DNA from: Planctomycetota bacterium
GTDB taxonomy: Bacteria; Planctomycetota; MHYJ01; WSZJ01; JACPWG01
DNA: 64,000 nt
NCBI GenBank assembly: GCA_016197205.1
Contig: JACPWG010000109.1
Span: forward strand, 1 to 64,000
Direction of reading: 5' to 3'
The notes under the pieces are model-generated. The model saw only the letters and a program-made list of their open reading frames with translations. It did not search any database and was not told the DNA's origin. Shown here one piece after another: positions 22,265 through 40,489 of the stretch; position 1 is the stretch's first letter; each line of letters begins with the position of its first letter. The position numbers and the translations under genes were made by a program.

Positions 22265-22717
22265 ATGTCGCGTCGCCAGGAAAAGATCGCCCGCGAGCTC
22301 CAGCGCGCCCTCGCGCAGATCATTCCCTACGAGCTGACCGACCCGCGGATCCAGCATGTCACGATCACGCGCGTCGAGGCCACCGCCGACCTCCGGACCG
22401 CGAAGGTTTTCTTTTCGGTCCTCGGCGGGGAGAAGGAGAGCCGGCGCGTGATCTGGGGCCTGATCCACGCGAAGCGCTTCATCCAGGCCGCGGTAGGCCG
22501 CCGGGTCAAGCTCCGGATCCTCCCGCAACTGACGTTCGTGTACGATGATTCGATCGCGGGTTCGATCCGGATCATCCGCCTCGTCGAGTCCCTGGTAAAA
22601 AAGCCGGACGCGGCCGAAGCCGAAGGCGGGGAACCGCACGCCGATACGGCGAACGTGGAGCCGAAGGCGAAAGTGGACGCAACGGTGGACGAGACGGAGG
22701 TGGCGGAGGAGGAGTAG
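22265..22717 (+). CDS. rbfA: 30S ribosome-binding factor RbfA
   Basis: This 150-aa protein is RbfA, the KH-fold cold-shock factor that binds the 30S subunit during 16S rRNA 5'-end maturation. Diagnostic parts are RRQEKIARELQRALAQII, the DPRIQHVTITRVEATADLR strand with its Ala-x-Asp kink, VFFSVLGG and the LKILPQLTF-like segment (here LRILPQLTFVYDDS). The C-terminal 35 residues are an acidic tail. It closes the nusA operon; a repeat-rich gap follows. Confidence 0.96.
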   Translation: MSRRQEKIARELQRALAQIIPYELTDPRIQHVTITRVEATADLRTAKVFFSVLGGEKESRRVIWGLIHAKRFIQAAVGRRVKLRILPQLTFVYDDSIAGSIRIIRLVESLVKKPDAAEAEGGEPHADTANVEPKAKVDATVDETEVAEEE

Positions 22718-23012
22718 TACCGGCCCGTGGACACCGTCCACACACGCTTCCTGGGGGCGCGGGCCTCCTGCCCGCGCAGCGCGGCCCCGAGGCCCGCGCC
22801 CCCAGGCATCGTACTGGACTTCGTCAACGAGTCACTAGGTCCGGAGGCAGCACCCGTCCCCCCTCTGCGCTCGCCGCGGCGAGGTTCGTGGCGCAGGCCC
22901 TGCAGCCCGCCGGTCGGGAACAGGGGGATCGCGGACCCGCGACGCACGCGCTCGACACGCGGGTGCTGCGGGACGATCGTGTACCCGACGGTTCGAGGAG
23001 CAGGCGGGCCGG
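22718..23012. repeat. R2-type repeat with inverted end
   Basis: Positions 22747-22838 hold another R2 copy: GGGCCTCCTGCCCGCG, then CGCGCCCCCAGGCATCG, then CTTCGTCAACGAGTCACTAG, which is an inverted relative of the 19-bp repeat at 17047. The remaining 170 bp before the next gene show no recognisable promoter. Confidence 0.6.
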
Positions 23013-26000
23013 ATGCAGTGCGCGCTTTGCGGAAGCCGAGTCCGTCCCGAGCACGCCTTCTGTCCGGCGTGCGGGCTTGAGCTGGACTCCCGGAAACACC
23101 GGGAGATCCGCGACATTCGGGAGCTCCTGGGGAACCTGCGCTCGGGCCGGCGCTCGGGAGCTTTTTCCGACGAGTTGCTCGAGCGGATCGGCGACGTCTG
23201 CCTCGTGCGAGAAAGGGAGCTGGTCGACTCCCTGCGTCGCGTGTCCGAAAGCGGGCCGGCGGCGTCGGCCGCCCCCGCGCCTGAGGCTCCGTCCGCCCCG
23301 GCAGTCCCACCAACTCCGCTGCCGACCGCACCGCTTCTCGAAGGCGTCGCGCCGGCCACGCAACCGCAGCCGAAGCCTCCGCCGGGAACCAGGCTCTCGC
23401 CCGCGCCGCCGGCGTCCACCACACTACGACCCGTCGTTGCGTCCCCCCCGGCGCCGGCCCCCTCGACGGCCGAAGACGTCATTCCCGTCGCGGAGCTGGT
23501 AGCTGAGCCCTCGGCCGCGACGCCGCCGGCTCCGGCCCCGCCGCCCCAGGCCCCGCCAACGGCACCCGCACCCGCACCCGTACCGCCCCGCGCGCAGCCG
23601 ACCTTTCCGGGCGGGATCCGCGCGGAAGAGGGCGAACGCCTGTCGCCGCGCGAACGGGCTCGGCGGCTCGCGATGGACAGGCTGCGCGAGGAGGACGCCG
23701 AACGACGCGCAGCGGCGCCCACCGCTCCCGGGTCCACGCCCCCCGCGGCGGAGTCGGCCGCGAGCGCAGCGCCGCCCGACCTCCAGCCGGCGCGGGCTCT
23801 TCCCTCGCCACCCGCGTCGCCCGCGCAGGCGGAACCTGCGGTGTTGCCCACGCCCACGCCTCCACCGCCGACGGTCCCCGCGCCGTCACCCGCGCAGGCG
23901 GCGGCCCCCTGGGCGGCGGCGCCCCCGGCACCCGGGCCCGCCGCGCCTCCCTCGCGCTCCTTCCGGGACTGGGTTGCCGGCCTCTGGACCCAGGTCAACA
24001 TCCAGTGGCTGCTCTACCTCGGCCTCACGATCTTCCTCCTCGCCGGCGGCGTCGTAGTGCGGAGCCAGTGGACGAGCTATACGCCGCTGGTCAAGACTCT
24101 CGTGCTTGCCGGCGCGACAGGCCTCACTTTTCTTTTCGGGTGCGGCCTCCGCTTCCGCCTCGGGCTCCCGCGCACGGGGACCGCCTTCATTGTCCTCGCG
24201 TCCCTCCTCGTCGGTTTCGATGCCTTCGCCGCCTTCTCGTTCGCGGAGGAAGGGACGATCTCCTGGCAGCTCCTGGGCGCGGTCACCTCGGTCGCCTGCG
24301 GCGCGCTCTACCTGGGACTGCGCCGCTGGCTCGACGAGGAGGTGTTCGCCTACCTCGCCGCCCTGGCCGGCGCGGTCGCGACCGGCTTCCTCCTGCTCCG
24401 GGCCGGCGGACGGCCGGCGCACCTCGGCGGGGCCACGTCCGTCCTCTTCGGCGCCTACCTCCTGGCGAGCTACTTCGCGGCGCGCGCTCCTGACCGCCTC
24501 GCGCCCCTCAAACCCTACGGCCGCGCGCTCGCATGGATCGGCGGGCTCGGCCTCGGGCTGTGCGTCACCGGGGTCCCGTTCTCGCTCTTCGTCCTCGGGA
24601 ACCTGGACCCGGCCGCCGACTTCCCGGCCCTCGCGTTTCCCCTCGCGCTCGGCTCCTGCGTCGTGCGCGTGGCGGGACTCGAGCGACGGCGCGCCTGGTA
24701 CTTCCTCGGGTCCGCGGCCTTCGAGACCGGGCTCCTCCTCCTCGCCCTCGCCCGCTTCGGCCTGCCCGAGGAGCGATGGAGCGGCTGGTGCATGGCCGCG
24801 GGGGTGCTCGCGTGGAGCGCCCCTTTCCTCGTGCGCTCGGGAGAGTGGACGGAATGGACGCGGGCCTACCATGCCGCAGGGCAGGTCCTGGGGACCTGCG
24901 CGCTCGTCGCGTCGCTCGGGCTCTGGGCCGTGCGACAGTCTCCCGCCTCGCTCGAAGACCTGATGTTCACGGTCTGCTGGCCCGGGGGGATCTCGGGCGC
25001 GCTGCTCTTCAAGCGCAGGGAGCGGGAGCTCGCCGCGGCCACACTCGCGACCCTCGCCGTCGAATACGTCCTCTGTCTGCTGCGCGTACCCGTCGACTTC
25101 CCCTGGTGGCCCGTCGCGCTCGCCCCGCTCCACCTCGCGGCGGGTAGCGCCTTTCTTTTCGCGAACGCGGACCGGTGGGCGTGGGCGCGGGGACCGCTCG
25201 GAGCGCTGGCGCACGCGTCGGCTGCCCTGGCGACCGGGGCGCTCGTTCTTTTCCTGCCGCGGATCTACGGCGAGGCGCCCGGCGCCGGGGCCGGTGCGTC
25301 CGCGGCCCTCGCGGCCTATTGCGCGCTCTACGCCACGTCCGGGAGCAGCCGCACGTGGGCCTTTCTGCTCTTCCAGGCCCTGAGCGCCGCGGCCCTCTTC
25401 GTCCTGCGCCGGGCGGGCGTGCCGTGGGTGGAGTACGGCCCATGGCTGACCGGACTGGCCATCGGCTACCTGGTGCTCGGCGGGCGAAAGGGCATGGCGG
25501 TGTTCGCGCGCCCGGCCGCGTTGTCGGGCGCCCTGCTGGCCACGCTGTCCCTCGGCCTCGCCGCGTATCAGGTGATCACCCTACCTCCCGCCGGCTTCGG
25601 CCCGCCGGCGCTGGTGGTGGCGATGGTGGGCGGCTACTGGCTCGCGCTCGCCTTCCTGCAGGAGGGACCTGTCCACGGAGGGATCGGCGCGGTCCTGACC
25701 GCGACGGCGTACGTGCTGGCGTTCGTGCTCCGCCCGGGCTTGGGCGCGGCGGAGGGCGCAAGCGCGGCGGTCCCGCTCCTTGTCGCCGAGTGGGGGCTCG
25801 GCCTCGCGCTCCGCCGCCGCTTCCCCGCGCCGGCCCGCGCGCTCCTCGGCTTGGCGGCACTCGTGGCCGCCGCCTGCACGGGCATCCTCGCCGCGTCCGA
25901 GTGGCAGGCGTGGGTGGGCGAGGAGTGGCTCACGGCCGCCCCCGCCTGGACGTGCCTTGTCCTCTGTGGCGTGGCGGTCCTCGGACTCTCCGGCTTCTTG

Positions 26001-29000
26001 TCGGCGTCGACGCCTCGAGTCGCCGAAGAAAAGAGTCCGGCCCCGGACGCCTGGGCGCCGGTGCGACGGTCCTGCCTCTGGGCCTGTCTGGGGGTTCTGC
26101 CCGGCATCGCAAGCGCGTGGCTCGAAGCCGGGAGTGCGACGGCCCAGGAGACCGCACTCGGAGCGGCCGCACTCGGGGCGGTGTACTTGGCCGCAGCCCG
26201 CCGCTCCTTCACGTGGCTGTACGGCCCCGGTACCGCGCTCGGCTACCTGCTGGCCACGCTCTGCCTTTTCCTCTCCGCGGGCGTGGCGATCGCGGACCCC
26301 GGGGCCGGGCTGCGACCGTGCGTGCAAGGGACGACGCTCTTGGGCGGGCTTTTCCTCGTGCTGGCCCTGGTCGAGGGCTGGGGCGGGCGAACGATCGTTC
26401 GCTCCTACCACGCGTGGTCGTCCGCGGCGCTCCTGGTCGCCGCGTATGAATTGGCGCTGCACTCCGGTGGAAGAATCGAGGTGTGGAACGAAGCCGCGCT
26501 CGCGGTCCCGGCCGCGCTGGGTCTCTCGTTCCTCGCATGCGGGGCGCGGCGCTGGGCCGGTGCGGAGGTCGCCCTGCCCTTCCAGTGGGCCGCCGAGGGG
26601 ACCGCCGCGGCGTCGGCGGGAGTGGTCCTGCTGGCTCTCCGCCTCCTCCTCGAAGAGCAGCCGGCCGCCGGCGGGGCCGCGGCAGCGCTGCTCTCGGCCT
26701 ACTACGGGCTCTCACTGACCTACGCACCGCATCCGGTTCGGGGGGGACTCTTCTTCCTGGCGACGGTGATCGCGGGACTGTTCGGCGCCGCGGGCCACGG
26801 GGTCGGGTGGCGAGAGGCCGTCGTGCCCGCCTCGCTCGGGCTCTTTCTGCTGCCCGCTCTCGCCGCGACGCTCGAGCGACAGCCGCTCGTGCGCGCGGTG
26901 GCAGCCGAAACCCCGTCGCAGGGCCTCCCGCCGCTCCGGGCCGCGCTCGCGGCGGGCGCCATGGGCGTCGGCCACCTCGCGGCCACGGCATGCCTGGTCG
27001 GGCTCCTGACGCGGGCGCACTTCTACTACGAGCAGGCGCCGGCGGCCGGCGCGGCGGGCTGGGTGGGGCTCTCCGGCTTCTGCGCCGCGTGGGGCGTCGG
27101 GGCGACCCGCTCGCGGGGCGCTTTCCTCGCGCTCCTCTCCTTCGCCGTGGCGTGGGTGCACGTGCTGTCCCGGTTCGGGGTGAGCTGGGAGCGCTCCGGC
27201 GCCCCCCTCATTCTGCTGTCGGTCGCGTATCTCTCCGTCGCTCGCCGCTCCTGGCGTCTCCTCGCGTCTCCGGCGCAGGTCGCAGGCTATCTGGTGGCCG
27301 CGGTCGCGCTCACGATCACGGCCGTCACCTACGTCACGTTTCCCGACCACAACCTCGACTCGGCGCTCGCCGTGACCGGTACGCTGGCGGTCGGGGCGGG
27401 CTGGATGGCGCTGTCGTGGGGGGGCGGCTTCCACGCCTGGGCTTCGATGTTGTCGCTCGCCGCGTTCGCGCTCCTCGGGTTGCAGCGCATGGGCGTGCCC
27501 GCCGCCGAATGGCCGCCGGACCTGACGCTCTTGGCGATGGGTTTCGGCGGGCTCGGGCTCTGGCTGTCCGGTCGGACGGAAGCTGCGTCCGCATGGCCGG
27601 CGTTCTCGGTGGCAGGGGTCTTCGGAGGCGGCAGCCTCGTCCTCCTCACTTCGGAGCTGTCGATCCTCTTCCGCGAGCGAACCGGGGACGGGACGAAGGC
27701 CTTCCTCCTGCTCGCGCTGCTGCTCGGCGCCGGTTCGTGGGTGACGCGACGGGCCCGGGTGGCCTTCGCGGGCTTCCTTGCGGCCGCGGCCACCGTCGTC
27801 TTTGCCCTCCGGTGGAGCGGCGTGGACGGCTTCGACCTCGGTCCATACCTGGCCGGGCTGTCGCTGCTCGGCGTGGCGGCACGCGGGCGACGCGATCGCA
27901 TCCGTGTCGTGCCCGCGGCGGCGGGCGTGGAGGACGCCGCCGCCCCCTCCGTGCTCGGCGCGCCGGGCCCGCGGGTGGGCTACGCGTGGCGGGTGTTCGA
28001 GGCCCTGGGCTGGGCCTCCCAGGTCGTCGCGTGGGCGTCGCTCGTGCCGCTCGCCGGGGCGCTCGGGGAAGGCCACCACCCGCTGCTCGCGCCGTTCGTC
28101 CTGGTCGCCGGCGTCCTGGGGCTGCGCGCGGGAGTCGCCTCGGCGTTGTATGGAGAATGGCTCGACGGGGCGCTCTGTCCCCTGTGGTGGGGACTGGGCT
28201 GGATCGCGTGGTTACGAGCGGAGCGTGTCGGGGTGCACGACGGTGCGGCACTTCTCGCCTGGCTCGCGGTCGCGTTCTCGGGGCTTTCGTGGGCGACGCA
28301 GCGACTCGACCTGCGTCGCTCCTGGCGGGGAACGGTTGCGAACGGGCGCGTGACCTGGTCGCGGCTGGCGAGCTTCCCCGTCCCCGCCCTCGCGGGCGGG
28401 TTCGCGACGGAGGCGGGGCTGTTGGCTGCCGGCGTTTGGGCGCTCTTGGCCTGGGGGGCGCCTGAGCTGCTCGGGTCCGACCCTCCGTTCACTCCGGCGG
28501 CGAAAGCCTTCGCCCTCCTCGCCTTGGCGCACGGCGCGGGCGCCTTTCGAACGCGCGCGGTCCGCGGGGCCTGGCTCTCTCTCGCGGCGGCCACGCTTTG
28601 CGGCAGCCTGGTGCTGGCCGACCTCGGCGTGTCGTGGCCCTACGAGTCGCTCTACCTCGTGCTCCTGGCCATCGCCTTTTTGGCGGCCGCGGTCGCGTTG
28701 CGGCGCGGGTCGGCTTCCGGCGGGGAAGCGCGGCTTGAACCGGTCGGCCTCTTCCTCCCGCCGGCGGGCGCGCTCGCGCTGGCCGCGGCGGCAATCGGGA
28801 TGGCGGGCGTTGCGGCGGACGCGGCGGCGCGTCCCGCGCTCTGCACCTGGCTGCCGGGACTGTACGCGGTTTTCTTCGCCCTGCTCGCCCGACTGCCCGC
28901 GTACGCGAGCGCGCTCCGCCTCTGCCTGCCCTTCGTGGGGCTCTCGTATTTCGCCTTCGGCCTCTACCATGGCGTCCCGGCCGACGCCTACGGTATTTAC

Positions 29001-30413
29001 CTGATCTGCTACGGCGCCACGTGCGCGGTCCTCGGTTGGGCCTTCGCACGCCGTTCCGACGGCCTGCGCGAAGGGGGCTACGGCACCGGCGTCGCCGCGA
29101 CGGTGCTCGGCCTCGCGCTCGCCTTCCTGGTCCCCGACCAGCCGCTGTCGGGGACCGGCGCCGAACGGAGCGCGCTCGCATGCGGGCTTGCGGCGGCGCT
29201 CTTCGGCGCGATTTCGTTCCAGGGGCGGGCCCCGGCATGGGCCGGCCCGGGCTGGACTTCGGCGGCCGGCGCGTGCCTGCTCGACGCGGCGTACGTCCTC
29301 TTTCTGAAGGCGCATGCGCGCGGGTCGGAGTGGGGCGGGCTGGTCGTGCTCGCCTTCTCGGCGGCGCTGTCCACGGCATCCACTCTGCTCGGGCGAAAAG
29401 GCTTCCAGGCGCAGGCGGACTCGGTCGCGAGCGTCTCGCTGCTGAATTCGCTGGTGGCGGTCGGCGCCGCGTGGACGCACCCCGGCCCGCGCACGTGGAC
29501 GCTCGTCGGCTGCTCCGGGCTCTACGCGGTCACGGCCTTGCAGTCGCGGCCGGACCTCTTCCTGCAGCTCGCCGGCATCGCCTTCGCCGCGGCCGGCTGG
29601 TCCTGCCTCGACGCCGCGCGGGCGACCGCCGACCAGTTCCGCGAAGGACTGCTCGTCGTGAGCTTCGCGGAGGTGGTGGCGGGCGGCGTGCTCGCGCGCG
29701 TCCGCGCGAGCGGCTTCCCGGGTATCTTCGCGCTTGGGATGTTGCTCCTGGCGGGCGTCCTCGGCTCGACGGCGCTCGATCTCGAGGGCCTGCTCGCGGG
29801 CCCGCCGGGAGTGACGGTCACACTCGGCCTCGAAGGGGCGGCGATTCTGCTGGCCGCGGGCGTGCTGCGGGGGGGCGGAGCGTACTACTACGGGAGCCTG
29901 GCGCTGCTGCTCGCGTCGTATGAGCTTTCGATCTATCGCGCCCGGTTCGAGCAGGTGGAATACTACACGATCCCGCTGGGCGCGATGGCGCTCCTCTGGG
30001 GGCCGCTGGTCGGACGGCGGCATGGGTGGAGCGTGCGCGGCGCACGCGCGATCGACGTCTTCGGCCTGCTCGTGGTCGCGGGCCCTTCCCTCGCGCTCTC
30101 GCTCGACCCGGCGCAGCGCGTGAGCGCGTGGGCCGCGCTCGGGTCGGGGATCGGGCTGGTGTTCGCCGGGATGGCAGGCCGGTCGCTCGTGCTGCTGCTC
30201 GGGGGCACCGCGGCGGTGCTCGCGGAGTCGGTCATTCAAGGAGTGCAGATGGTGCGCTTCCCCGAGCTGGGACGCGCGGGCCTGTGGATGGCGGTGGGAG
30301 GAGGGCTGATGCTGCTTGGCGTGCTCTTCGAAGTGCTCCGCAACCAGGCGACGCGTGCGCGCGTCGCGCGGATCCGGGAGTGGGCGGTGGACTACTTCAA
30401 GGAATGGAGGTAG
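23013..30413 (+). CDS. Giant (2466-aa) zinc-ribbon polytopic membrane protein
   Basis: This is the largest gene here. Residues 3-20 form a zinc ribbon (CALC ... CPAC), followed by a charged helical segment (about 25-75) and a roughly 240-residue Pro/Ala linker. From about residue 315 almost to the end it is continuous hydrophobic helices, roughly 60-75 by eye, with short polar loops. The first helices (QWLLYLGLTIFLLAGGVVV ... SYTPLVKTLVLAG) resemble DUF2157/DUF2339-type membrane proteins, usually far shorter; family assignment is tentative. No transporter, enzyme or transferase motif stands out. It ends 6 bp before a membrane Ser/Thr kinase that also has zinc ribbons, so the two probably act together. 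ATG 23013 immediately precedes the zinc ribbon. Confidence 0.8.
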   Translation: MQCALCGSRVRPEHAFCPACGLELDSRKHREIRDIRELLGNLRSGRRSGAFSDELLERIGDVCLVRERELVDSLRRVSESGPAASAAPAPEAPSAPAVPPTPLPTAPLLEGVAPATQPQPKPPPGTRLSPAPPASTTLRPVVASPPAPAPSTAEDVIPVAELVAEPSAATPPAPAPPPQAPPTAPAPAPVPPRAQPTFPGGIRAEEGERLSPRERARRLAMDRLREEDAERRAAAPTAPGSTPPAAESAASAAPPDLQPARALPSPPASPAQAEPAVLPTPTPPPPTVPAPSPAQAAAPWAAAPPAPGPAAPPSRSFRDWVAGLWTQVNIQWLLYLGLTIFLLAGGVVVRSQWTSYTPLVKTLVLAGATGLTFLFGCGLRFRLGLPRTGTAFIVLASLLVGFDAFAAFSFAEEGTISWQLLGAVTSVACGALYLGLRRWLDEEVFAYLAALAGAVATGFLLLRAGGRPAHLGGATSVLFGAYLLASYFAARAPDRLAPLKPYGRALAWIGGLGLGLCVTGVPFSLFVLGNLDPAADFPALAFPLALGSCVVRVAGLERRRAWYFLGSAAFETGLLLLALARFGLPEERWSGWCMAAGVLAWSAPFLVRSGEWTEWTRAYHAAGQVLGTCALVASLGLWAVRQSPASLEDLMFTVCWPGGISGALLFKRRERELAAATLATLAVEYVLCLLRVPVDFPWWPVALAPLHLAAGSAFLFANADRWAWARGPLGALAHASAALATGALVLFLPRIYGEAPGAGAGASAALAAYCALYATSGSSRTWAFLLFQALSAAALFVLRRAGVPWVEYGPWLTGLAIGYLVLGGRKGMAVFARPAALSGALLATLSLGLAAYQVITLPPAGFGPPALVVAMVGGYWLALAFLQEGPVHGGIGAVLTATAYVLAFVLRPGLGAAEGASAAVPLLVAEWGLGLALRRRFPAPARALLGLAALVAAACTGILAASEWQAWVGEEWLTAAPAWTCLVLCGVAVLGLSGFLSASTPRVAEEKSPAPDAWAPVRRSCLWACLGVLPGIASAWLEAGSATAQETALGAAALGAVYLAAARRSFTWLYGPGTALGYLLATLCLFLSAGVAIADPGAGLRPCVQGTTLLGGLFLVLALVEGWGGRTIVRSYHAWSSAALLVAAYELALHSGGRIEVWNEAALAVPAALGLSFLACGARRWAGAEVALPFQWAAEGTAAASAGVVLLALRLLLEEQPAAGGAAAALLSAYYGLSLTYAPHPVRGGLFFLATVIAGLFGAAGHGVGWREAVVPASLGLFLLPALAATLERQPLVRAVAAETPSQGLPPLRAALAAGAMGVGHLAATACLVGLLTRAHFYYEQAPAAGAAGWVGLSGFCAAWGVGATRSRGAFLALLSFAVAWVHVLSRFGVSWERSGAPLILLSVAYLSVARRSWRLLASPAQVAGYLVAAVALTITAVTYVTFPDHNLDSALAVTGTLAVGAGWMALSWGGGFHAWASMLSLAAFALLGLQRMGVPAAEWPPDLTLLAMGFGGLGLWLSGRTEAASAWPAFSVAGVFGGGSLVLLTSELSILFRERTGDGTKAFLLLALLLGAGSWVTRRARVAFAGFLAAAATVVFALRWSGVDGFDLGPYLAGLSLLGVAARGRRDRIRVVPAAAGVEDAAAPSVLGAPGPRVGYAWRVFEALGWASQVVAWASLVPLAGALGEGHHPLLAPFVLVAGVLGLRAGVASALYGEWLDGALCPLWWGLGWIAWLRAERVGVHDGAALLAWLAVAFSGLSWATQRLDLRRSWRGTVANGRVTWSRLASFPVPALAGGFATEAGLLAAGVWALLAWGAPELLGSDPPFTPAAKAFALLALAHGAGAFRTRAVRGAWLSLAAATLCGSLVLADLGVSWPYESLYLVLLAIAFLAAAVALRRGSASGGEARLEPVGLFLPPAGALALAAAAIGMAGVAADAAARPALCTWLPGLYAVFFALLARLPAYASALRLCLPFVGLSYFAFGLYHGVPADAYGIYLICYGATCAVLGWAFARRSDGLREGGYGTGVAATVLGLALAFLVPDQPLSGTGAERSALACGLAAALFGAISFQGRAPAWAGPGWTSAAGACLLDAAYVLFLKAHARGSEWGGLVVLAFSAALSTASTLLGRKGFQAQADSVASVSLLNSLVAVGAAWTHPGPRTWTLVGCSGLYAVTALQSRPDLFLQLAGIAFAAAGWSCLDAARATADQFREGLLVVSFAEVVAGGVLARVRASGFPGIFALGMLLLAGVLGSTALDLEGLLAGPPGVTVTLGLEGAAILLAAGVLRGGGAYYYGSLALLLASYELSIYRARFEQVEYYTIPLGAMALLWGPLVGRRHGWSVRGARAIDVFGLLVVAGPSLALSLDPAQRVSAWAALGSGIGLVFAGMAGRSLVLLLGGTAAVLAESVIQGVQMVRFPELGRAGLWMAVGGGLMLLGVLFEVLRNQATRARVARIREWAVDYFKEWR

Positions 30414-30419
30414 CGACAA

Positions 30420-31874
30420 ATGGCCGGCAAACGACCGGAGGCGGGGATGCGCCTGGGCCAATACGTGCTTGACCGGAAACTCGGCGCAGGCGGGTTCGCC
30501 GAAGTATGGCGCGCCGTGCACGCGGAGATCCCGGGAAAGGTCGCGGCCGTGAAGGTCCCGACCTCGGACGAATACGTGCGGCAGCTTCGCGGCGAAGCGG
30601 CGCTGGAGCATCGGCTGGAGCATCCACGAATCGTGCGCACGCTCGACCTGGACACGCGGCACGAGCCGCCGTACTTCGTGATGGAGTACGTGGAGGGCGA
30701 AAGCCTGCGGGACCGGCTGCGACGGGCGGGAAAACTTTCCTGGCGCGAGGCGGCGCGGATCGGGGACCAGGTCCTGGACGCGCTCGCGTACGCGCACGGA
30801 CAGGGGGTGTTGCACCGGGACGTAAAGCCGGAAAACCTGCTCGTGGCGGCGGCGGGGGCCGGCGAGGGGAAGGGGACGGGCGTGGGCGACGTGAAGGTGA
30901 CGGACTTCGGGCTCGGGCGCGCGCACGCGGGGGCGACGCTGTCGGTGCAGAAGAGCTTGGTGGAGCTGTCGGGTCCGGTGGCGGCGGAGGTCGCAGGGAC
31001 CTGGGGGTACATGTCGCCGGAACAGGCCGCGGGGGGCGAGGGGGACGCGCGCTCGGACTTGTATGCGGTAGGCGTGACGATGTACGAGCTGGCGCGCGGC
31101 GCTGCGAAGGTGCTGCGTTTTCCGATGACGGACGCGCCGGCGGCCTTTTCCCGGGTCGTGGAGCGGGCGACGGAGGAGGACCCTGTGCGTCGGTACGCGG
31201 ACGCGAACGAGATGCGGCGCGCGCTCGTGGCGGCGCTGGAGGCGCGGCCGGCGGAAGGCGAGGCCGGGGCCGGGGCCGGGGCCGCAGGCGCGGGCGCCGG
31301 GGCGGCGGCGGCTCACGCCCAAGCGACCCCGTGCACGTGCGGTCACGTACCGGCGGCGGAGGCGCTCTTTTGCGAGCGGTGCGGGCGGAACCTGGGGGAA
31401 TGGGCGTGCGTTCGTTGCGGGAAGGGGAACCCCGCCTGGGTGGAGAAATGCTGGAACTGCGGCCGGCCGCAGGCCGCGGGGAGGCCGGGGAACGTGGCGG
31501 GCGGAGACGCGCGCGGCGGTCGCCCTGCGGAAGCGGCGGCAGCGACGCCGGCCGACAGCCCGACGCCGAGACTGGCGGCGCCGCCGAAACCGCCGCCCGC
31601 GTGCGAACGGTGTTCGGCCCCGCTCGCCGCAGGTGCCGAAGACTGCGCCCTCTGCGGCTGGGCGTCGCCCGGACGTGGGGTCAGCCTCGACCTTCCGACG
31701 GGGATCCCGCCGCTCGCGTACGCGCTCCTGGCAGGCTCGCTCGTACTGCTCTTCCTTGGGGTGCGCGGGTCGATGCTGTGGCAGGTCCCCGGCGCGGCGG
31801 CCTTCGCGGTCGCGGTGTGGTTGGCGTTCCGGCGCGGGCCGGCGATTGGCGGCACAAGCGGGCCGCGCACGTAG
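30420..31874 (+). CDS. Ser/Thr protein kinase with zinc ribbons and C-terminal membrane anchor
   Basis: This 484-aa protein begins 6 bp after the giant membrane protein. The Hanks-type kinase domain covers about 14-285: glycine loop LGAGGFAEVW, Lys45, HRDVKPEN with Asp134, DFG at 162-164 and the GTWGYMSPEQ segment. An Ala/Gly repeat linker (about 290-305) leads to several CxxC motifs (CTCG, CERCG, CVRCG, CWNCG, CERCS, CALCG), i.e. about three zinc ribbons, and then two TM helices (about 430-475). The tail VPGAAAFAVAVW is encoded by DNA repeated at 33011-33082. The operon layout suggests it senses or phosphorylates the cytoplasmic part of the giant neighbour; substrates are unknown. Confidence 0.92.
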   Translation: MAGKRPEAGMRLGQYVLDRKLGAGGFAEVWRAVHAEIPGKVAAVKVPTSDEYVRQLRGEAALEHRLEHPRIVRTLDLDTRHEPPYFVMEYVEGESLRDRLRRAGKLSWREAARIGDQVLDALAYAHGQGVLHRDVKPENLLVAAAGAGEGKGTGVGDVKVTDFGLGRAHAGATLSVQKSLVELSGPVAAEVAGTWGYMSPEQAAGGEGDARSDLYAVGVTMYELARGAAKVLRFPMTDAPAAFSRVVERATEEDPVRRYADANEMRRALVAALEARPAEGEAGAGAGAAGAGAGAAAAHAQATPCTCGHVPAAEALFCERCGRNLGEWACVRCGKGNPAWVEKCWNCGRPQAAGRPGNVAGGDARGGRPAEAAAATPADSPTPRLAAPPKPPPACERCSAPLAAGAEDCALCGWASPGRGVSLDLPTGIPPLAYALLAGSLVLLFLGVRGSMLWQVPGAAAFAVAVWLAFRRGPAIGGTSGPRT

Positions 31875-32113
31875 GGGCGCAATTTCTCCAACGCACGGGC
31901 CGGTGCGGCTGAACGCACACGCCTCCGGCCGGTCGAGCAGGACGCCGTCCGCCTCGATGCGGGGGTGGGAGGGGTTGGCCGTTTGCCGGCGGCGGCGCTT
32001 GATCGGGTGTTCGGCGGCATGGTAGGATGCTAGGGTGGCAGCAGGGGATGGCCGTGCCCGATCGCTGGGCGGACCAGCCGACCCTGCGTAGATCCACACA
32101 AAACGGGGGACGT
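31875..32113. other. Short gap with a promoter
   Basis: Apart from the promoter at 31999-32028 I see nothing recognisable in these 239 bp. Confidence 0.5.
31999..32028 (+). promoter_or_regulatory. Sigma70-like promoter for the coiled-coil nuclease-like gene
   Basis: TTGATC (31999-32004), an 18-bp spacer and TAGGAT (32023-32028) form a plausible promoter. Transcription would start near 32035, which rules out an in-frame ATG at 32027 and supports the one at 32114 (or 32048). Confidence 0.55.
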
Positions 32114-32986
32114 ATGCCGCTCGATCCCGACACCCTGGCCTACATCGACAACGCGATCGACAGGCGCCTGACGGAGGTCCGCGTCCAGCGGTCCGAATTC
32201 GACGCGCTGGTAACCACCGTCCGCGAGCTGGCCAACGCCGTGTCCGAACTCCAAGTTGCCGTGGCGAACCTGGAGAAGCGGATGGAGGAGGGCTTTGCCC
32301 GCGTCTGGGAGGCGATCCAGGCACTCTCGGAGGCCCAGCGCCGCACGGAAGAGCGGCTGGAGAACGGCCTGAAGGCAATGCAGGAGGCCATCGTCAGGCT
32401 GGAGAAGGGGCAAGAGAAGATGCAGGCCACCATCGAGAAGATGCAGGCCACCATCGAGGCGATGCAGGCCGCCATCGAAAGGCTCGACCGAGGGTACGAG
32501 GCGAATCAGCAGACCATCGCGCGCTTGGACCGAGGGTACGAGGAGTTGCGACAGGTGGTCCTGCGGCTGGACCGGGGGCAGGATGCGCTACGCAAGGAGG
32601 TCGGCGCTCTCTCCGAGAACTTCGGGTGGGGCCTCGAAGAGATGGGCCGCGCGGTCATCGCCCACTACCTCCTCCACGAGCACGGTATTCGGGTCGAGGG
32701 GCTGGACAACACCCACTTCGCAGTCGATGGGGAGGAGGTGGAGATCGACCTCTTCGGCCGCGGACGGAAGGACGTCGAGGAGGTCGCGGTGCTCGCTGAG
32801 GTAAAGGCGCGCTTCTATCCCCGTGAACTGGCGGCCTTCGAGCGAAACACCGAGCGGATCATGGCCGGGCTGGGCTGCCGTGCGATCCGAATCCTCTTCG
32901 GGATGCGGTTGCATCCGGAGGTGAAGCGCCGGGCGAAGGAAGCCGGGATCGTGCTCATTCCATGGGACTACCAGTACAAGCTGTGA
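32114..32986 (+). CDS. Coiled-coil protein with C-terminal PD-(D/E)XK nuclease-like domain
   Basis: This 290-aa protein starts at ATG 32114, with GGGGGA close upstream. Residues about 20-165 form a long coiled coil containing near-identical 7-residue units (EKMQATI, EKMQATI, EAMQAAI; 21-bp DNA repeats at 32414-32476) and three RLDRGYE-type units. Residues about 175-290 look like a PD-(D/E)XK fold: Glu177 in the first helix, Asp212 (VEIDLFGR), then Glu229-Val-Lys231 (LAEVKARF). Such coiled-coil/PD-(D/E)XK proteins (DUF3782-like) occur in many copies in cyanobacteria and planctomycetes. They are presumed DNA-acting, possibly mobile-element derived, and untested. Its neighbour is a Uma2 fragment of the same fold. 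Confidence 0.8.
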   Translation: MPLDPDTLAYIDNAIDRRLTEVRVQRSEFDALVTTVRELANAVSELQVAVANLEKRMEEGFARVWEAIQALSEAQRRTEERLENGLKAMQEAIVRLEKGQEKMQATIEKMQATIEAMQAAIERLDRGYEANQQTIARLDRGYEELRQVVLRLDRGQDALRKEVGALSENFGWGLEEMGRAVIAHYLLHEHGIRVEGLDNTHFAVDGEEVEIDLFGRGRKDVEEVAVLAEVKARFYPRELAAFERNTERIMAGLGCRAIRILFGMRLHPEVKRRAKEAGIVLIPWDYQYKL

Positions 32987-35016: not shown

Positions 35017-35676
35017 CTAGCCGCCGCGTGGAGGCTTGTAGAGCCCCGCGGCATTGACGCCGAGCATCCCGGACTCAAAAGAGCGACGATCCATCCTGCT
35101 CAGCGCGGAGATCAGCTTCGGCGACAGCAACGGGAAGTGCCGCGCCGAGTCCAGCCGGCGGGCGATCTCCTCCATGGCCTCATCCCGCTCCGGCCAGTCC
35201 AGGCGGTCGAACCCGCGCAGGTCGACCGGGGCGGAATACGAGCGCAGGGTCTTCTCCCCCTCGAGGTTGTAGTAGTCCTCGAAATAGGACAGGGCCAATT
35301 CCCGTAGCGTCCGGAAGACCGGCTCGCGGAAGCGAAGCCCGACGAAGTTGGACTTCGCGATCGCGCCGAAGCGGCCGTGCCGCGTGAAGAGCGCGAGGAT
35401 GTGGTCGTCGTCGCGGACGGCGCGGAGGTCGACGAGAAGAGGCGGGTGGCCGAGGCGCCGGAGCGCGGCGGCGGCGAAGACGGCGCCGTCGAAGCAATGG
35501 GCGACGCGATCGCGCAGGACGCTGCGGGGACAACGGTAGACGGGGTCGGCGCTGTACGGGACGGAATCCAAAAAGGCCTGGATGCGCGCGGGGCTGTCGA
35601 GGCGCGCGGACGCGCCGTTGGGGCCGCCCGTCCCGACGCGCCCGTCCGTCCGCGAACTTGTTCCCTTCGGCTTCAC
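35017..35676 (-). CDS. Transglutaminase-like cysteine-protease-fold protein coupled to cheW
   Basis: This 219-aa protein starts at a GTG overlapping the cheW stop (GTGA), so it is translationally coupled to the chemosensory operon. The conserved core has Cys61 (RVAHCFDGAVFAAAALR), His92 (RDDDHILALF) and a following KSNF strand, the Cys-His order of transglutaminase-like folds; the third catalytic residue is not obvious. The C-terminal half (LRELALSYFEDYYNLEGEKTLRSYS) is well conserved in a family of uncharacterised bacterial proteins of similar length. No signal peptide is seen, so it should be cytoplasmic. An enzymatic role on chemoreceptors or other proteins is speculation. Confidence 0.7.
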   Translation of the reverse strand: MKPKGTSSRTDGRVGTGGPNGASARLDSPARIQAFLDSVPYSADPVYRCPRSVLRDRVAHCFDGAVFAAAALRRLGHPPLLVDLRAVRDDDHILALFTRHGRFGAIAKSNFVGLRFREPVFRTLRELALSYFEDYYNLEGEKTLRSYSAPVDLRGFDRLDWPERDEAMEEIARRLDSARHFPLLSPKLISALSRMDRRSFESGMLGVNAAGLYKPPRGG

Positions 35677-36176
35677 GCGTCCTTCCCCCCGACCGTGCCG
35701 GCGAGTTGCGACTTCTCCTCCCGGCTAAGCACCCGGTGAAGATCCAGGAGAATGATGAGCTGTCCTCCGACCTCGACGACCCCTTCGAGATACTCGGCGT
35801 CCATGCCCTGGATGTGGCGCGGGGCGGGCTGGATGCGGGAGAAGGGGATCTTGGTGAGCAGGTCGACGCGGTCCACGAGGAAACCGACGCTGCCGGGCTC
35901 CAGGCCCACGACGATGATGCGGACCTTGGACACGTCCTCGGCCTGCGGGAGGAGGAAGCGTTTCCGCATGGAGAGGATCGGGATGATGCGGCCGCGGAGG
36001 TTGATCATCCCCTCGAGGAAGCCCGGGGCGCGGGGGAGGGAGCTCAAGCTCACCGGGAGGATGATCTCCTCGACGGACTTGACGTTCACGCCGAACTTCA
36101 TGTCGGCCACGTGGAAGGTGACGAGTTGGACGATGGGGTCCCCTTCCGGGGCGGGGCTGTCGAAACCGGTATTCAC
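35673..36176 (-). CDS. cheW: CheW-like chemosensory adaptor (downstream copy)
   Basis: This 167-aa adaptor starts with GTG overlapping the cheB stop (GTGA). The CheW fold is evident: VQLVTFHVADMKFGVNVKSV, the LPRAPGFLEGMINLRGRIIPIL core motif, SVGFLVDRVDLLTKI, and LEGVVEVGGQLIILLDLHRVL near the end. CheW couples receptors to CheA in a cytoplasmic-membrane array. A longer in-frame reading into cheB is just a second frame. The stop overlaps the start of the transglutaminase-like gene. Confidence 0.95.
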   Translation of the reverse strand: MNTGFDSPAPEGDPIVQLVTFHVADMKFGVNVKSVEEIILPVSLSSLPRAPGFLEGMINLRGRIIPILSMRKRFLLPQAEDVSKVRIIVVGLEPGSVGFLVDRVDLLTKIPFSRIQPAPRHIQGMDAEYLEGVVEVGGQLIILLDLHRVLSREEKSQLAGTVGGKDA

Positions 36177-37222
36177 CGTAGGCTTTTCTCCAAGGACTTG
36201 AGCTGGGCGAGAATCTCGTCCGCGATCGCGTCGAGGGGGCGCACGCAGTCGATGGTCCCGAGTTCGATCGCGGCCTTCGGCATGCCGAAGATGAGCGAGC
36301 TGGACTCGTCCTGGGCGATGGTGCGGCCGCCGGCATCCTTGATCTGGCGCATGCCGAGCACGCCGTCCTTCCCCATGCCGGTGAGGATCACCCCGACCGT
36401 GTTGCGGCCGAAGTGTTTCGCGACCGAGAGGAAAGTGCGGTCGATGCTGGGGACGAACCGCGCCCCGGGTTCGGGCTCCACCATGTGGACGAGACCCGAG
36501 GGGGAGATTTCCATGTGGTGGCCGCCGGGCGCCATGAGGGCGAGGCCGGGGGAAATGGTCTCGTTCTCTCGGGCCTCCTTGACGGTGATCGCGCACAACT
36601 GGTTCAGACGATCGGCAAGCGCCCCGGTGAATTTCGGGGGCATGTGCTGGACGACGACGATGCAGGCGCCGAGCCCCTTGGGGAGCTTCGGCAGCACCTG
36701 CTGGAGGGCGGAGGGTCCGCCCAGGGAGACGCCGATCGCCACGATGAAGACGTTTTTGCGAAACCGGGGGCGCTGGGCGCGGCCCCGACCCCGCACGGCC
36801 CCCGCGCGGGAGCCGCGCACCTGGCTCGCCAGCGCGAGCTGGATCTTTTCGAGGAACACTTCCTTGTTCGGGAGGACGCCGTTCTCGGGGGAGTAGGTGT
36901 AGCGATCGACGAAGTCCACCGCTCCTTCCGCAAGGGCGTCGATGACCGGCTCGGGCCCGGTCTTGGAGATGTCGGTGAAGAGGAGGATCGGGGTCGGGGT
37001 GTGGCGCATGATGCCGCCGACGGCCTGCTTCACCTCGTAGCTTGCGCCTTCGAGTCCGACCAGCAGCAGATCGGGCCGCAGCTCGCGGACCACGCGGTCC
37101 GCCTGCGAAGGCTCCACCGCGGCCGGGAGCAGCTCATACTCGTCGCGGTACTTGAGCACCATGATCAAGTACTCGGCGAGCGGCGGCGGGATGTTGCTCA
37201 GGAGGATTTTGTACGTCTTCAT
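36173..37222 (-). CDS. cheB: CheB-type methylesterase with a degenerate receiver domain
   Basis: This 349-aa protein removes methyl groups from (or deamidates) chemoreceptor glutamates. The catalytic domain (about 155-345) keeps the triad region: Ser166 in GVSLGGPS, His193 in VQHMPPKFTGALADRL, and the Asp in LTGMGKDG. The N-terminal receiver is recognisable in length and fold, but the acidic pocket is gone (ILLSNIPP where VDDS is usual) and the phospho-acceptor position is glycine (LLLVGLEGAS, about residue 56). Control by CheA phosphorylation in the usual way is therefore unlikely. The linker is basic (RGRGRAQRPRFRK). It sits between cheA and cheW on the minus strand. Confidence 0.93.
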   Translation of the reverse strand: MKTYKILLSNIPPPLAEYLIMVLKYRDEYELLPAAVEPSQADRVVRELRPDLLLVGLEGASYEVKQAVGGIMRHTPTPILLFTDISKTGPEPVIDALAEGAVDFVDRYTYSPENGVLPNKEVFLEKIQLALASQVRGSRAGAVRGRGRAQRPRFRKNVFIVAIGVSLGGPSALQQVLPKLPKGLGACIVVVQHMPPKFTGALADRLNQLCAITVKEARENETISPGLALMAPGGHHMEISPSGLVHMVEPEPGARFVPSIDRTFLSVAKHFGRNTVGVILTGMGKDGVLGMRQIKDAGGRTIAQDESSSLIFGMPKAAIELGTIDCVRPLDAIADEILAQLKSLEKSLR

Positions 37223-37699
37223 GCGCGACAGACCTGATGCGCGAGGAGAGTCGTCGGGGGCGCGGGGCAGGCGGCGGCGGACGAAGTCTCAATGCTCAAT
37301 GCTCAAGCCTCAATCCATGCGCAAGCCTCAATTCTCAAGTTCGGCTCTCCGAGGCCTCGGCACGCCCCTCGAGAGTGCACGATCCCGATCGGTAGGGCTT
37401 CAATCCTCAGTACCGCCCCACAGAATTGGGTGACCCATTTCCTCGGCGATTTCGGCCGCCTGCTTCGTTGCGCTCGCTCGACGTAGTTCTCCGCTACTAC
37501 GCCTCGCTCGCGCGCCTCGCGGGCGGCCGAACTTGCCTTCGGCTATTGGTCACCGACTTCCGTGGAGCGGTACTCCGCTCAGCTCGGCGGTCGGCTGGGA
37601 AGTTCGAGAGACGGGGCGCCGATCGGGAGTGTGAACCGCCTCCGGAAGGTCGGAGGCGCGGGCCGCCGGAATTGAGAATTGAGGCTTGAGCATTCGTGG
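37223..37699. repeat. R5 inverted unit enclosing a large hairpin repeat
   Basis: The cheA-cheB gap is flanked by R5 arms: CTCAATGCTCAAGCCTCAAT at about 37293-37312 with a second AAGCCTCAATTCTCAA at 37324-37339, and the inverted copy ATTGAGAATTGAGGCTTGAG at 37672-37691. Inside, about 37427-37560 forms an imperfect hairpin with arms of roughly 60 bp (TTCGGCCGCCTGCTTCGTTG opposite GCGGGCGGCCGAA; TGGGTGACCCA opposite TGGTCACC). The layout is that of a miniature non-autonomous element. No gene is supported. Confidence 0.7.
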
Positions 37700-40489
37700 T
37701 CACCCTCCCGTCCGGCCGCGGACGTTGTTCCGCACGACCTGCAGGAGGGTCTCCTTGTCGAAAGGCTTGGTGAGGTAGTCGTCCGCGCCGGCGTCGAAGC
37801 CGCGGATCTTGTCCATCTTTTCGCCCTTCGTGGTGACCATGATGATCGGGACGCTGCGATACTCGGGGAGGCGGCGCAGGTTGCGGGTCAGCTCGTACCC
37901 GTCCATGCGGGGCATCATGATGTCGGTCGATACGAGATCGAAGACTTCGCGCTGCGCGGTCTCGAGGCCGGCCTGGCCGTCCGGCGCCTCCACGACGCGA
38001 TAGCCGGCGGAGAGGAGATACTCCCGCATCTTCATCCGGATCGAGCGCGTGTCCTCGACCAGCAGGATGGAAACGGCCTTCGGGGCTTCCGGCGCCGCGG
38101 AAACCTCCTTCTGCAGCTCCCGGGCGCGCGCGAGGAACTGGCCGGGGATGGCGGCGCTGGTGGACTCGATCAGCTCCTGCGGATCGAGGATCAGGATCAC
38201 GCGGCCGTTGCCCAGGATGGTGGAGCCGAGGGCGAAGCGGACCTTGTTCAGGATGGCGCCCAGGGACTTGATGACGATGGCCTGTTTGTCGAGCATCCGA
38301 TCCACGACGAGGCAGGCGCGCTTGTCGCCGGAGCCGAGGACGAGGCACGGCAGCAGCTCCTGCTCCTCCCACGAAGTGCCTTCGAGGCCGAGGACCTCGT
38401 CGAGGCGGAGGATCGGGATGGTCTGTCCGTGCAGGGAAATCATTTCCCGCGTCCCGATCCGGCGGATGTCGGTGGGCCGGATCGTCAGCATCTCCTGGAT
38501 CGACGTCAGGGGCACCGCGTAGAGCTCGTTGTTCTTGGTGACCAGGATCACGTCGATGATGGCCAGCGTGAGCGGCAGCCGGACCTGGAAGAGCGTCCCC
38601 CAGCCCGGCGTGGACTCGACCGTGATCGAGCCCTTCATGTTGGCCACCGACTGCTTGACCACGTCGAGGCCGACGCCGCGACCGGACATGTCGGTGATCT
38701 CGCGCGCCGTCGAGAACCCGGGAAAAAAAATGAGATCCATGACCTGGCCGTCGGTGAGGTGGGCGACCTCCGCCTCCGTGAAAAAACCCTTCTGCACGGC
38801 CGAAACCCGGAGCAGGGCCGGGTCGATCCCCCGGCCGTCGTCGGCGACCTCGATGTAGATCTGGCTGCCCTTGTGGTAGGCGCGCAGCGTCAGGCTCCCC
38901 TCTTCCGGCTTCCCGAGCTCGGCGCGCGCCTGCGGGCCCTCGATGCCGTGGTCGATCGCGTTCCGGATGATGTGCATGAGCGGCTCGCCGATCTGCTCGA
39001 CGAGCATCTTGTCCAGCTCGGTCCCCTCCCCCGCCATGCTGAGATTGACCTTCTTGCCGAGGCCACGGGAGATCTCGCGCACCATGCGAGGGAATTTATT
39101 GAAGACCTGCGCGACCGGGACCATCCGGATCTTCATCACGTTTTCCTGGAGGTCGTTGGTGAGCAAGCCGAGCTGGTCGGTCGACTCCAGGATCTCCTTG
39201 AGCAGCTCGTCGTAGACGCGCTCGATGCGGTCCAGTTCGTCGACCAGGACGTCCAGCGAAGAGCGGCGCCCCTCCGCGCCGTCGTCCCCGCGCTTCTGGT
39301 AGGAGGCGACCAGCGCGCCGAAGCCCTCGCGGACCGAGTCCAGACGGCGGGGCTGCTGGGCTTCCAGGGAGGCCTGCCAAAGCAGCCGGTCCATGTCCAC
39401 GGTCAGCGAGCGGAGGAACTCGGCGATCGGACGGGTTTGAAGCGCGCCGCGCAGCCGGCGGCGGCAACGCCTGAACTCGCTCCCCAGGCTGCGCAGGTTC
39501 GCGAGGTGCTGCTCGAACCGGATGTTGCCGATGACGAGCTCGCCGACGAGATCCATGACCTTGTCGAGCTTGGACAGGCCGACGCGCAGGCCCTGGTCCG
39601 GCGCGGCGCCCCGGCCCGAGGAGTCGCCCGCATCGGCGGTCGTCGCGGCGACCTGCGGAGGCGGGGGGCCGCGACGGGCACCTTGCGCGGCGGCAGCGAG
39701 CGCCTCGGGCACTTCTACCGCACGCGGTTCGGCGGGGGGTTCGGGCGCCGGTGAAGGATGCGACGCGGGCGCGGGCCCGACCGGCGGAAGCGAGAGGGGG
39801 TGCGGCGGCGCGGCCGCCGCGGCGCTCGCCGCGGGCCTGGGAAACGCGACGCCGTGGGCGGGGGCGGGGGCGGAAACGTACGGGGGGACGGGGCCGGCAA
39901 CGGGCACCCCCGGCAGCGCCGCGGCGACCGGCGCAGCGAACGACGTGGCCGCCGACGACGCGGGAGGCGCGGGCCCGGCCGGCGCGTGGGCCGGCAAGGG
40001 AGCACGCTTCGGCGGGGCATGGGGCTGGCGCGGGAGCGGGGCGGGTCCGGCCATCCGCTGGACGACCAGCTTCTCGAGAATCGGCGTGATGTCCGCGGTG
40101 ATGGGGCGCAGGTCAGTGAGACTCGGGAGGATGTTCGACCGCACGACGTCCGTGGCCTCGAGCAGCACGTCGATGAGGTCGGACGTGGCCTGTCGCTGTC
40201 CCTGCCGGATCGATTCCAGGAGATTTTCCATCTCCCGGGCGATGAGGTTGAGCTTGTCGATGACGATGACCTTCGACAGCCCTTTCAGGTTATGGGCCGC
40301 GCGGAACAGGCTGTCGATGGTCTCGCGGTCGGGCGACTTTTCCAGCTTGAGGAGGTGCCGCGCGAGGTGATCGAGATTCTCTTCGCACTCCTGGATGACG
40401 GTGGACAGCAGCTCCTGGTACTCGCCAGGGTCCCACGACTCGGGCTCGCGCGCTTTCCGTTTCGTTTCGTCGTCCAGGATGTCGGCCAC
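37700..40489 (-). CDS. cheA: CheA-type histidine kinase with C-terminal receiver (CheA-REC hybrid)
   Basis: This 929-aa hybrid kinase starts near the cheR side. An Hpt domain (about 20-125) carries phospho-acceptor His66 (FRAAHNLKGLS). A Pro/Ala/Gly linker (about 150-290) with no clear CheY/CheB-binding P2 domain follows, then dimerisation (about 300-430), HATPase (about 440-600; EPLMHIIRNAIDHG, DDGRGID, GRGVGLDVVK), a CheW-like domain (about 610-780) and a receiver (about 805-925) with Asp856 (VSTDIMMPRMDG). A fused receiver and absent P2 match FrzE-type kinases that phosphorylate their own receiver. An A8 run sits inside the gene at 38723-38730. Confidence 0.96.
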   Translation of the reverse strand: MADILDDETKRKAREPESWDPGEYQELLSTVIQECEENLDHLARHLLKLEKSPDRETIDSLFRAAHNLKGLSKVIVIDKLNLIAREMENLLESIRQGQRQATSDLIDVLLEATDVVRSNILPSLTDLRPITADITPILEKLVVQRMAGPAPLPRQPHAPPKRAPLPAHAPAGPAPPASSAATSFAAPVAAALPGVPVAGPVPPYVSAPAPAHGVAFPRPAASAAAAAPPHPLSLPPVGPAPASHPSPAPEPPAEPRAVEVPEALAAAAQGARRGPPPPQVAATTADAGDSSGRGAAPDQGLRVGLSKLDKVMDLVGELVIGNIRFEQHLANLRSLGSEFRRCRRRLRGALQTRPIAEFLRSLTVDMDRLLWQASLEAQQPRRLDSVREGFGALVASYQKRGDDGAEGRRSSLDVLVDELDRIERVYDELLKEILESTDQLGLLTNDLQENVMKIRMVPVAQVFNKFPRMVREISRGLGKKVNLSMAGEGTELDKMLVEQIGEPLMHIIRNAIDHGIEGPQARAELGKPEEGSLTLRAYHKGSQIYIEVADDGRGIDPALLRVSAVQKGFFTEAEVAHLTDGQVMDLIFFPGFSTAREITDMSGRGVGLDVVKQSVANMKGSITVESTPGWGTLFQVRLPLTLAIIDVILVTKNNELYAVPLTSIQEMLTIRPTDIRRIGTREMISLHGQTIPILRLDEVLGLEGTSWEEQELLPCLVLGSGDKRACLVVDRMLDKQAIVIKSLGAILNKVRFALGSTILGNGRVILILDPQELIESTSAAIPGQFLARARELQKEVSAAPEAPKAVSILLVEDTRSIRMKMREYLLSAGYRVVEAPDGQAGLETAQREVFDLVSTDIMMPRMDGYELTRNLRRLPEYRSVPIIMVTTKGEKMDKIRGFDAGADDYLTKPFDKETLLQVVRNNVRGRTGG

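Follow-up and report, generated by a model that had tools for sequence, protein, structure and literature searches.

Planctomycetes encode very many Ser/Thr kinases, for which few inputs are known. In the phage-shock (PSP) and Lia envelope-stress systems, the LiaI-LiaF-TM domain, which includes DUF2157, is described as a sensory transmembrane (TM) domain of PSP, and band-7 proteins are listed among the PSP partners (PMC11237479). For the proteins called SCO7613_CTERM (NF047321), the only phenotype in the literature is that of SCO7613 in Streptomyces, the deletion of which reduces PHA storage (PMC8313934). The labels SCO7613_CTERM and DUF2157 (PF09925) are by themselves uninformative. Here we describe a locus from Planctomycetota within a 64,000-nucleotide stretch of DNA (the window), in which a gene for a giant membrane protein is followed by a Ser/Thr kinase gene. 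Its analysis gives the family an architecture, namely tandem four-helix repeats in variable number, and a set of consistent partners: PspA, band-7 proteins and Ser/Thr kinases. The pair was initially put forward as a candidate for something undescribed; the giant is a variant, unusual in size, of a known but uncharacterized family with long members common in the phylum, and is more likely to belong to a membrane-sensing system than to be an entirely new machine.

Architecture of the giant and its coding frame

The features of the locus, all on the plus strand, are as follows, with the basis of each assignment in brackets.

23013..30413, + strand: giant SCO7613_CTERM/DUF2157-type membrane protein, 2466 aa, P0001 (ORF call, relatives' alignments)
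23019..23072, + strand: N-terminal zinc ribbon of the giant, C3xxC6...C17xxC20, aa 3-20 (motif, alignment)
23238..23957, + strand: Pro/Ala-rich linker of the giant, aa ~76-315 (sequence)
23964..24285, + strand: DUF2157-like first TM module of the giant, aa ~318-424 (profile-profile comparison, relatives)
24288..29835, + strand: array of ~115-aa predicted four-helix repeats of the giant, aa ~426-2274 (self-comparison, HMM, AlphaFold)
29883..30410, + strand: SCO7613_CTERM-like C-terminal module (C-module) of the giant, aa 2291-2466 (profiles, BLASTP)
30406..30412, + strand: GGAGG Shine-Dalgarno-like site for the kinase, within the giant's final codons (sequence)
30420..31874, + strand: Ser/Thr protein kinase, 484 aa, P0002, kinase domain aa 15-280 (Pfam, motifs)

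The uninterrupted 7.4-kb frame holds up as a coding sequence. Its length alone proves little, because chance readily produces long frames in DNA of 74% GC; a spurious antisense ORF of 1388 aa (28212-32378) overlaps the giant's DNA. That the gene is real follows from its G+C by codon position (0.75/0.59/0.88), its existing relatives and a conserved C-module that ends at the last codon, and is further supported by the Shine-Dalgarno-like site of the kinase within its final codons. The N-terminal CxxC...CxxC ribbon and the Pro/Ala linker are also as first described, the linker extending to about residue 316. Many hydrophobic helices are indeed present, although the initial estimate of 60-75 becomes 53-73 here, depending on the threshold.

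The giant's ribbon and basic C-tail are probably cytoplasmic, because the ribbon is not preceded by an apparent signal peptide and Arg/Lys residues number 72 in even loops versus 37 in odd loops, a distribution that fits an N-in topology. In the kinase, the ribbons separate the kinase domain from the TM helices and would therefore be cytoplasmic too.

Family membership and relatives

Direct profile searches place the giant poorly. Pfam and NCBIfam scans returned weak ribbon matches only, and the giant matched neither the SCO7613_CTERM model nor, at E<=1, DUF2157 (gathering cut-off 32.4 bits). Its assignment comes through relatives. When residues 320-799 of the giant were searched against 99 relative genomes, a paralog was recovered in the giant's own genome (L013), together with relatives in genomes G009 (L014) and G079 (L015). 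The giant aligns to L014 and L013 at both ends (BLASTP, 4e-14/3e-13 and 3e-11/4e-28), with alignable regions at the ribbon and next helix (aa 1-75), the first TM module and the C-module. L014 exceeds the NF047321 cut-off of 45 bits (51.4 bits), with L013 just under it (42.6 bits). Both carry DUF2157 in their first TM module, L014 scoring 34.8 bits when the neighboring match in the frame is included. The first TM module matched DUF2157 with a profile-profile probability of 90.5% (reversed control 0.1%), and the C-modules of five subgroups matched one another at 95.6-97.7% (reversed controls <=0.6%). In all of these subgroups, the C-module sits at the very C-terminus or within 8 residues of it, and in the giant it ends at the last residue. 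Together, these sequence comparisons argue strongly that the giant is an outsized member of the SCO7613_CTERM family with a DUF2157-like first TM module. It is termed DUF2157-like only, because the giant itself has no direct Pfam match; the initial assignment to a DUF2157/DUF2339 type thus stands for DUF2157, via relatives, and falls for DUF2339, which no scan detected.

The giant shares with SCO7613_CTERM proteins an exactly C-terminal C-module and many TM helices, but lies below the detection of the model and adds an N-terminal ribbon and ~18 repeat units. Similarly, its first TM module aligns with DUF2157, whereas strong-match frames in the search are mostly 335-671 aa long and the giant's module opens a 2,140-aa array. 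With the C-module profile, the family was found in 55 of 392 planctomycete genomes. Forty members with 900 aa or more were compared: 23 reach 1,500 aa and 10 reach 2,000 aa, the window's giant being the longest. With the giant as the only query, a scan of 84,980 genomes found no relative; the sole match of an alignment scan was JACPRB010000018.1, from a Planctomycetota groundwater metagenome-assembled genome, which encodes a protein identical to that of the G009 relative and so appears to be the G009 contig.

The adjacent kinase and the partners of relatives

The kinase gene begins 6 bp after the giant's stop codon, and because its GGAGG sits inside the giant's last codons, co-translation of the two genes is very likely. 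The kinase passes as Hanks-type (Pkinase PF00069, E 4.4e-39; HRDVKPEN, DFGLG and a Gly-rich loop) and carries three Cys4 zinc ribbons (aa 305-321, 330-347 and 395-412) followed by two C-terminal TM segments (aa 428-470), in agreement with the initial annotation.

The best explanation of the locus, held tentatively and somewhat short of probable, is that the giant serves as a membrane scaffold or as a sensor of the state of the envelope, and that at this locus it is coupled to the kinase. Architecture, repeats, family, neighbors and fusions are directly established; that the giant senses, recruits and controls a kinase is what we infer. The array would read the physical condition of the cytoplasmic membrane, whereupon the giant would recruit or control a cytosolic effector: probably PspA in some relatives, a band-7 protein in others, and in yet others a kinase domain carried by the membrane protein itself. 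In the window, the effector would be the translationally coupled Ser/Thr kinase under the giant's control, positioned next to the giant in the membrane by its own ribbons and two TM helices. The reduced PHA storage of the SCO7613 deletion counts against an envelope-stress role.

It is possible, though not the reading we prefer, that the giant, though it belongs to the family, has a membrane function of its own and that the kinase is a chance neighbor in a kinase-rich genome. Searched with the kinase at E<=1e-10, this 9.1-Mb genome gives at least 152 matches, a very large kinase set; the pair alone is therefore weak evidence, and the chance of finding a kinase beside a given gene is estimated at a few per cent. 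Moreover, an adjacent same-strand kinase is absent at the own-genome paralog, at the nearest relative L014 and at ~40 other loci. Among the loci examined, only the window has a kinase immediately adjacent, and no relative was found that shares both the giant's length and the kinase neighbor. The conserved two-gene complex proposed at first is therefore not supported by the neighborhood check, and the specific giant-kinase pairing is an unproven candidate. Against mere coincidence are the tight linkage, with a 6-bp gap and overlapping translation signals, the ribbons and TM helices common to both proteins, and the existence of kinase-DUF2157 fusions, including one in the same genome. Kinases elsewhere around L071, L077, L078, L083, L015, L063 and L089 are distant or convergent and were set aside.

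The fusions are single-chain Ser/Thr kinase-DUF2157-multi-TM proteins, which a search by the membrane part recovered from 24 genomes and 15 genera, with a query built from two fusions and thus favoring fusions. An N-terminal kinase lies in the same frame in 22 of the 24 DUF2157-plus-TM proteins, and the other two frames begin at a sequence edge. They include proteins of the giant's own genome (G000:C153, L113) and of the genome of L014 (G009:C37, L114), as well as L117-L140. Like the window pair, the fusions (L107, L106 and 20 others) combine a kinase with a DUF2157-type membrane part; in contrast to the separate genes of the window, they form one chain, mostly of 690-890 aa, without the giant array. 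In place of a conserved two-gene complex, a general kinase/DUF2157 partnership is supported, independently, by at least 22 fusions.

Other relatives have other neighbors. A pspA gene lies directly 3' of the family member in eight loci from seven genera (L015, L049, L051-L055, L067), where the members are ~1,220 aa long, and a band-7/SPFH gene lies directly 5' of the long membrane gene in four loci (L063, L071, L078, L083). These neighbors, together with the fusions, favor the scaffold or sensor reading; against it, both subgroups lack the ribbon by a strict pattern and are only remote kin of the giant. DUF2157-type TM domains with PspA and band-7 partners recall the PSP and Lia systems (PMC11237479), but no window ORF matched PspA, the PspA genes of this genome are on other contigs, no Toastrack domain was seen, and membership is not claimed. 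In four loci of one genus of the same order (L087-L090), a giant-type gene is clustered with FHA-CAP proteins, in some with a GDSL hydrolase, and in L089 also with a VWA protein and a kinase. Being confined to one genus, the FHA-CAP genes were rejected as partners.

The repeat array and the surroundings of the locus

Internal repeats, which had been suggested as a check, are present as ~115-aa units. The giant's self-alignment scores 52.5, versus at most 24.5 for shuffles preserving the hydrophobic pattern and 30.9 for the reversed sequence, and the offsets fall mostly near multiples of 115-120 residues. An HMM seeded with three copies found seven matches, four beyond the seed, whereas shuffles gave 3-4 (none extra in nine of ten, one extra in the tenth). 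Clear units start near aa 426, 544, 659, 762, 1013, 1223, 1349, 1456, 1563, 1832 and 2056; the rest are degenerate. The stretch from residue 426 to the end accommodates ~18 units, whereas L013 and L014 have ~9-11. These counts are approximate, because weak units are counted by register and because the iterated HMM gives circular E-values, so that evidence is taken from its seed round and the matching shuffles alone. Assembly artefact was rejected as the source of the array, because aligned units are only 15-32% identical to the reference unit. An AlphaFold model of one unit, from 24 aligned copies, predicts four helices (2-17, 23-43, 48-66 and 75-99; pLDDT 73.5) and matches no fold in the PDB; a two-unit segment (pLDDT 54) was too poor for use.

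The extra length may reflect a neutral gain of repeats that adds no function beyond that of the 1,200-1,400-aa relatives, an explanation compatible with the other readings but somewhat unlikely. The conserved ends around a variable middle, the roughly doubled unit number and several degenerate middle units favor it; against it, long members are found again and again across many genera, their frames open and their codon bias normal. Conversely, the scaffold or sensor reading can be extended, speculatively and with low likelihood, to a distinct class of Planctomycetota membrane-state sensors, in which giant tandem four-helix arrays would act on effectors that can stand in for one another (PspA, a band-7 protein, or a Ser/Thr kinase that is either fused or adjacent) and the length of the array would tune the response. 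A membrane-array input would make some planctomycete Ser/Thr kinases testable. That the giant transports or flips lipids or polymers, with flux regulated by the kinase, is improbable: the very large polytopic array and the PHA phenotype of the Streptomyces namesake (PMC8313934) would suit it, but the giant resembles no Pfam or NCBIfam transporter family, has no PDB match in sequence or fold, belongs to a family whose repeat number varies about twofold, which is unusual for a conserved permeation path, and has relatives whose PspA and band-7 neighbors are not transport genes.

Upstream of the giant, on the same strand, lie nusA, infB and rbfA. Consensus scans of 22600-32200 detected neither a sigma-70-type promoter nor an excess of terminator-like sites. 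A palindrome at 22750-22808, between rbfA and the giant gene, has the core GGGGGCGCGGGCCTCCTGCCCGC, which occurs at <=1 mismatch in 226 genome copies (110 on the plus and 116 on the minus strand; reversed control 0); it is a member of a dispersed repeat family. Farther along the window, the minus strand at 35676-40489 carries a chemosensory cluster with CheW, CheB and a CheA with a response regulator domain.
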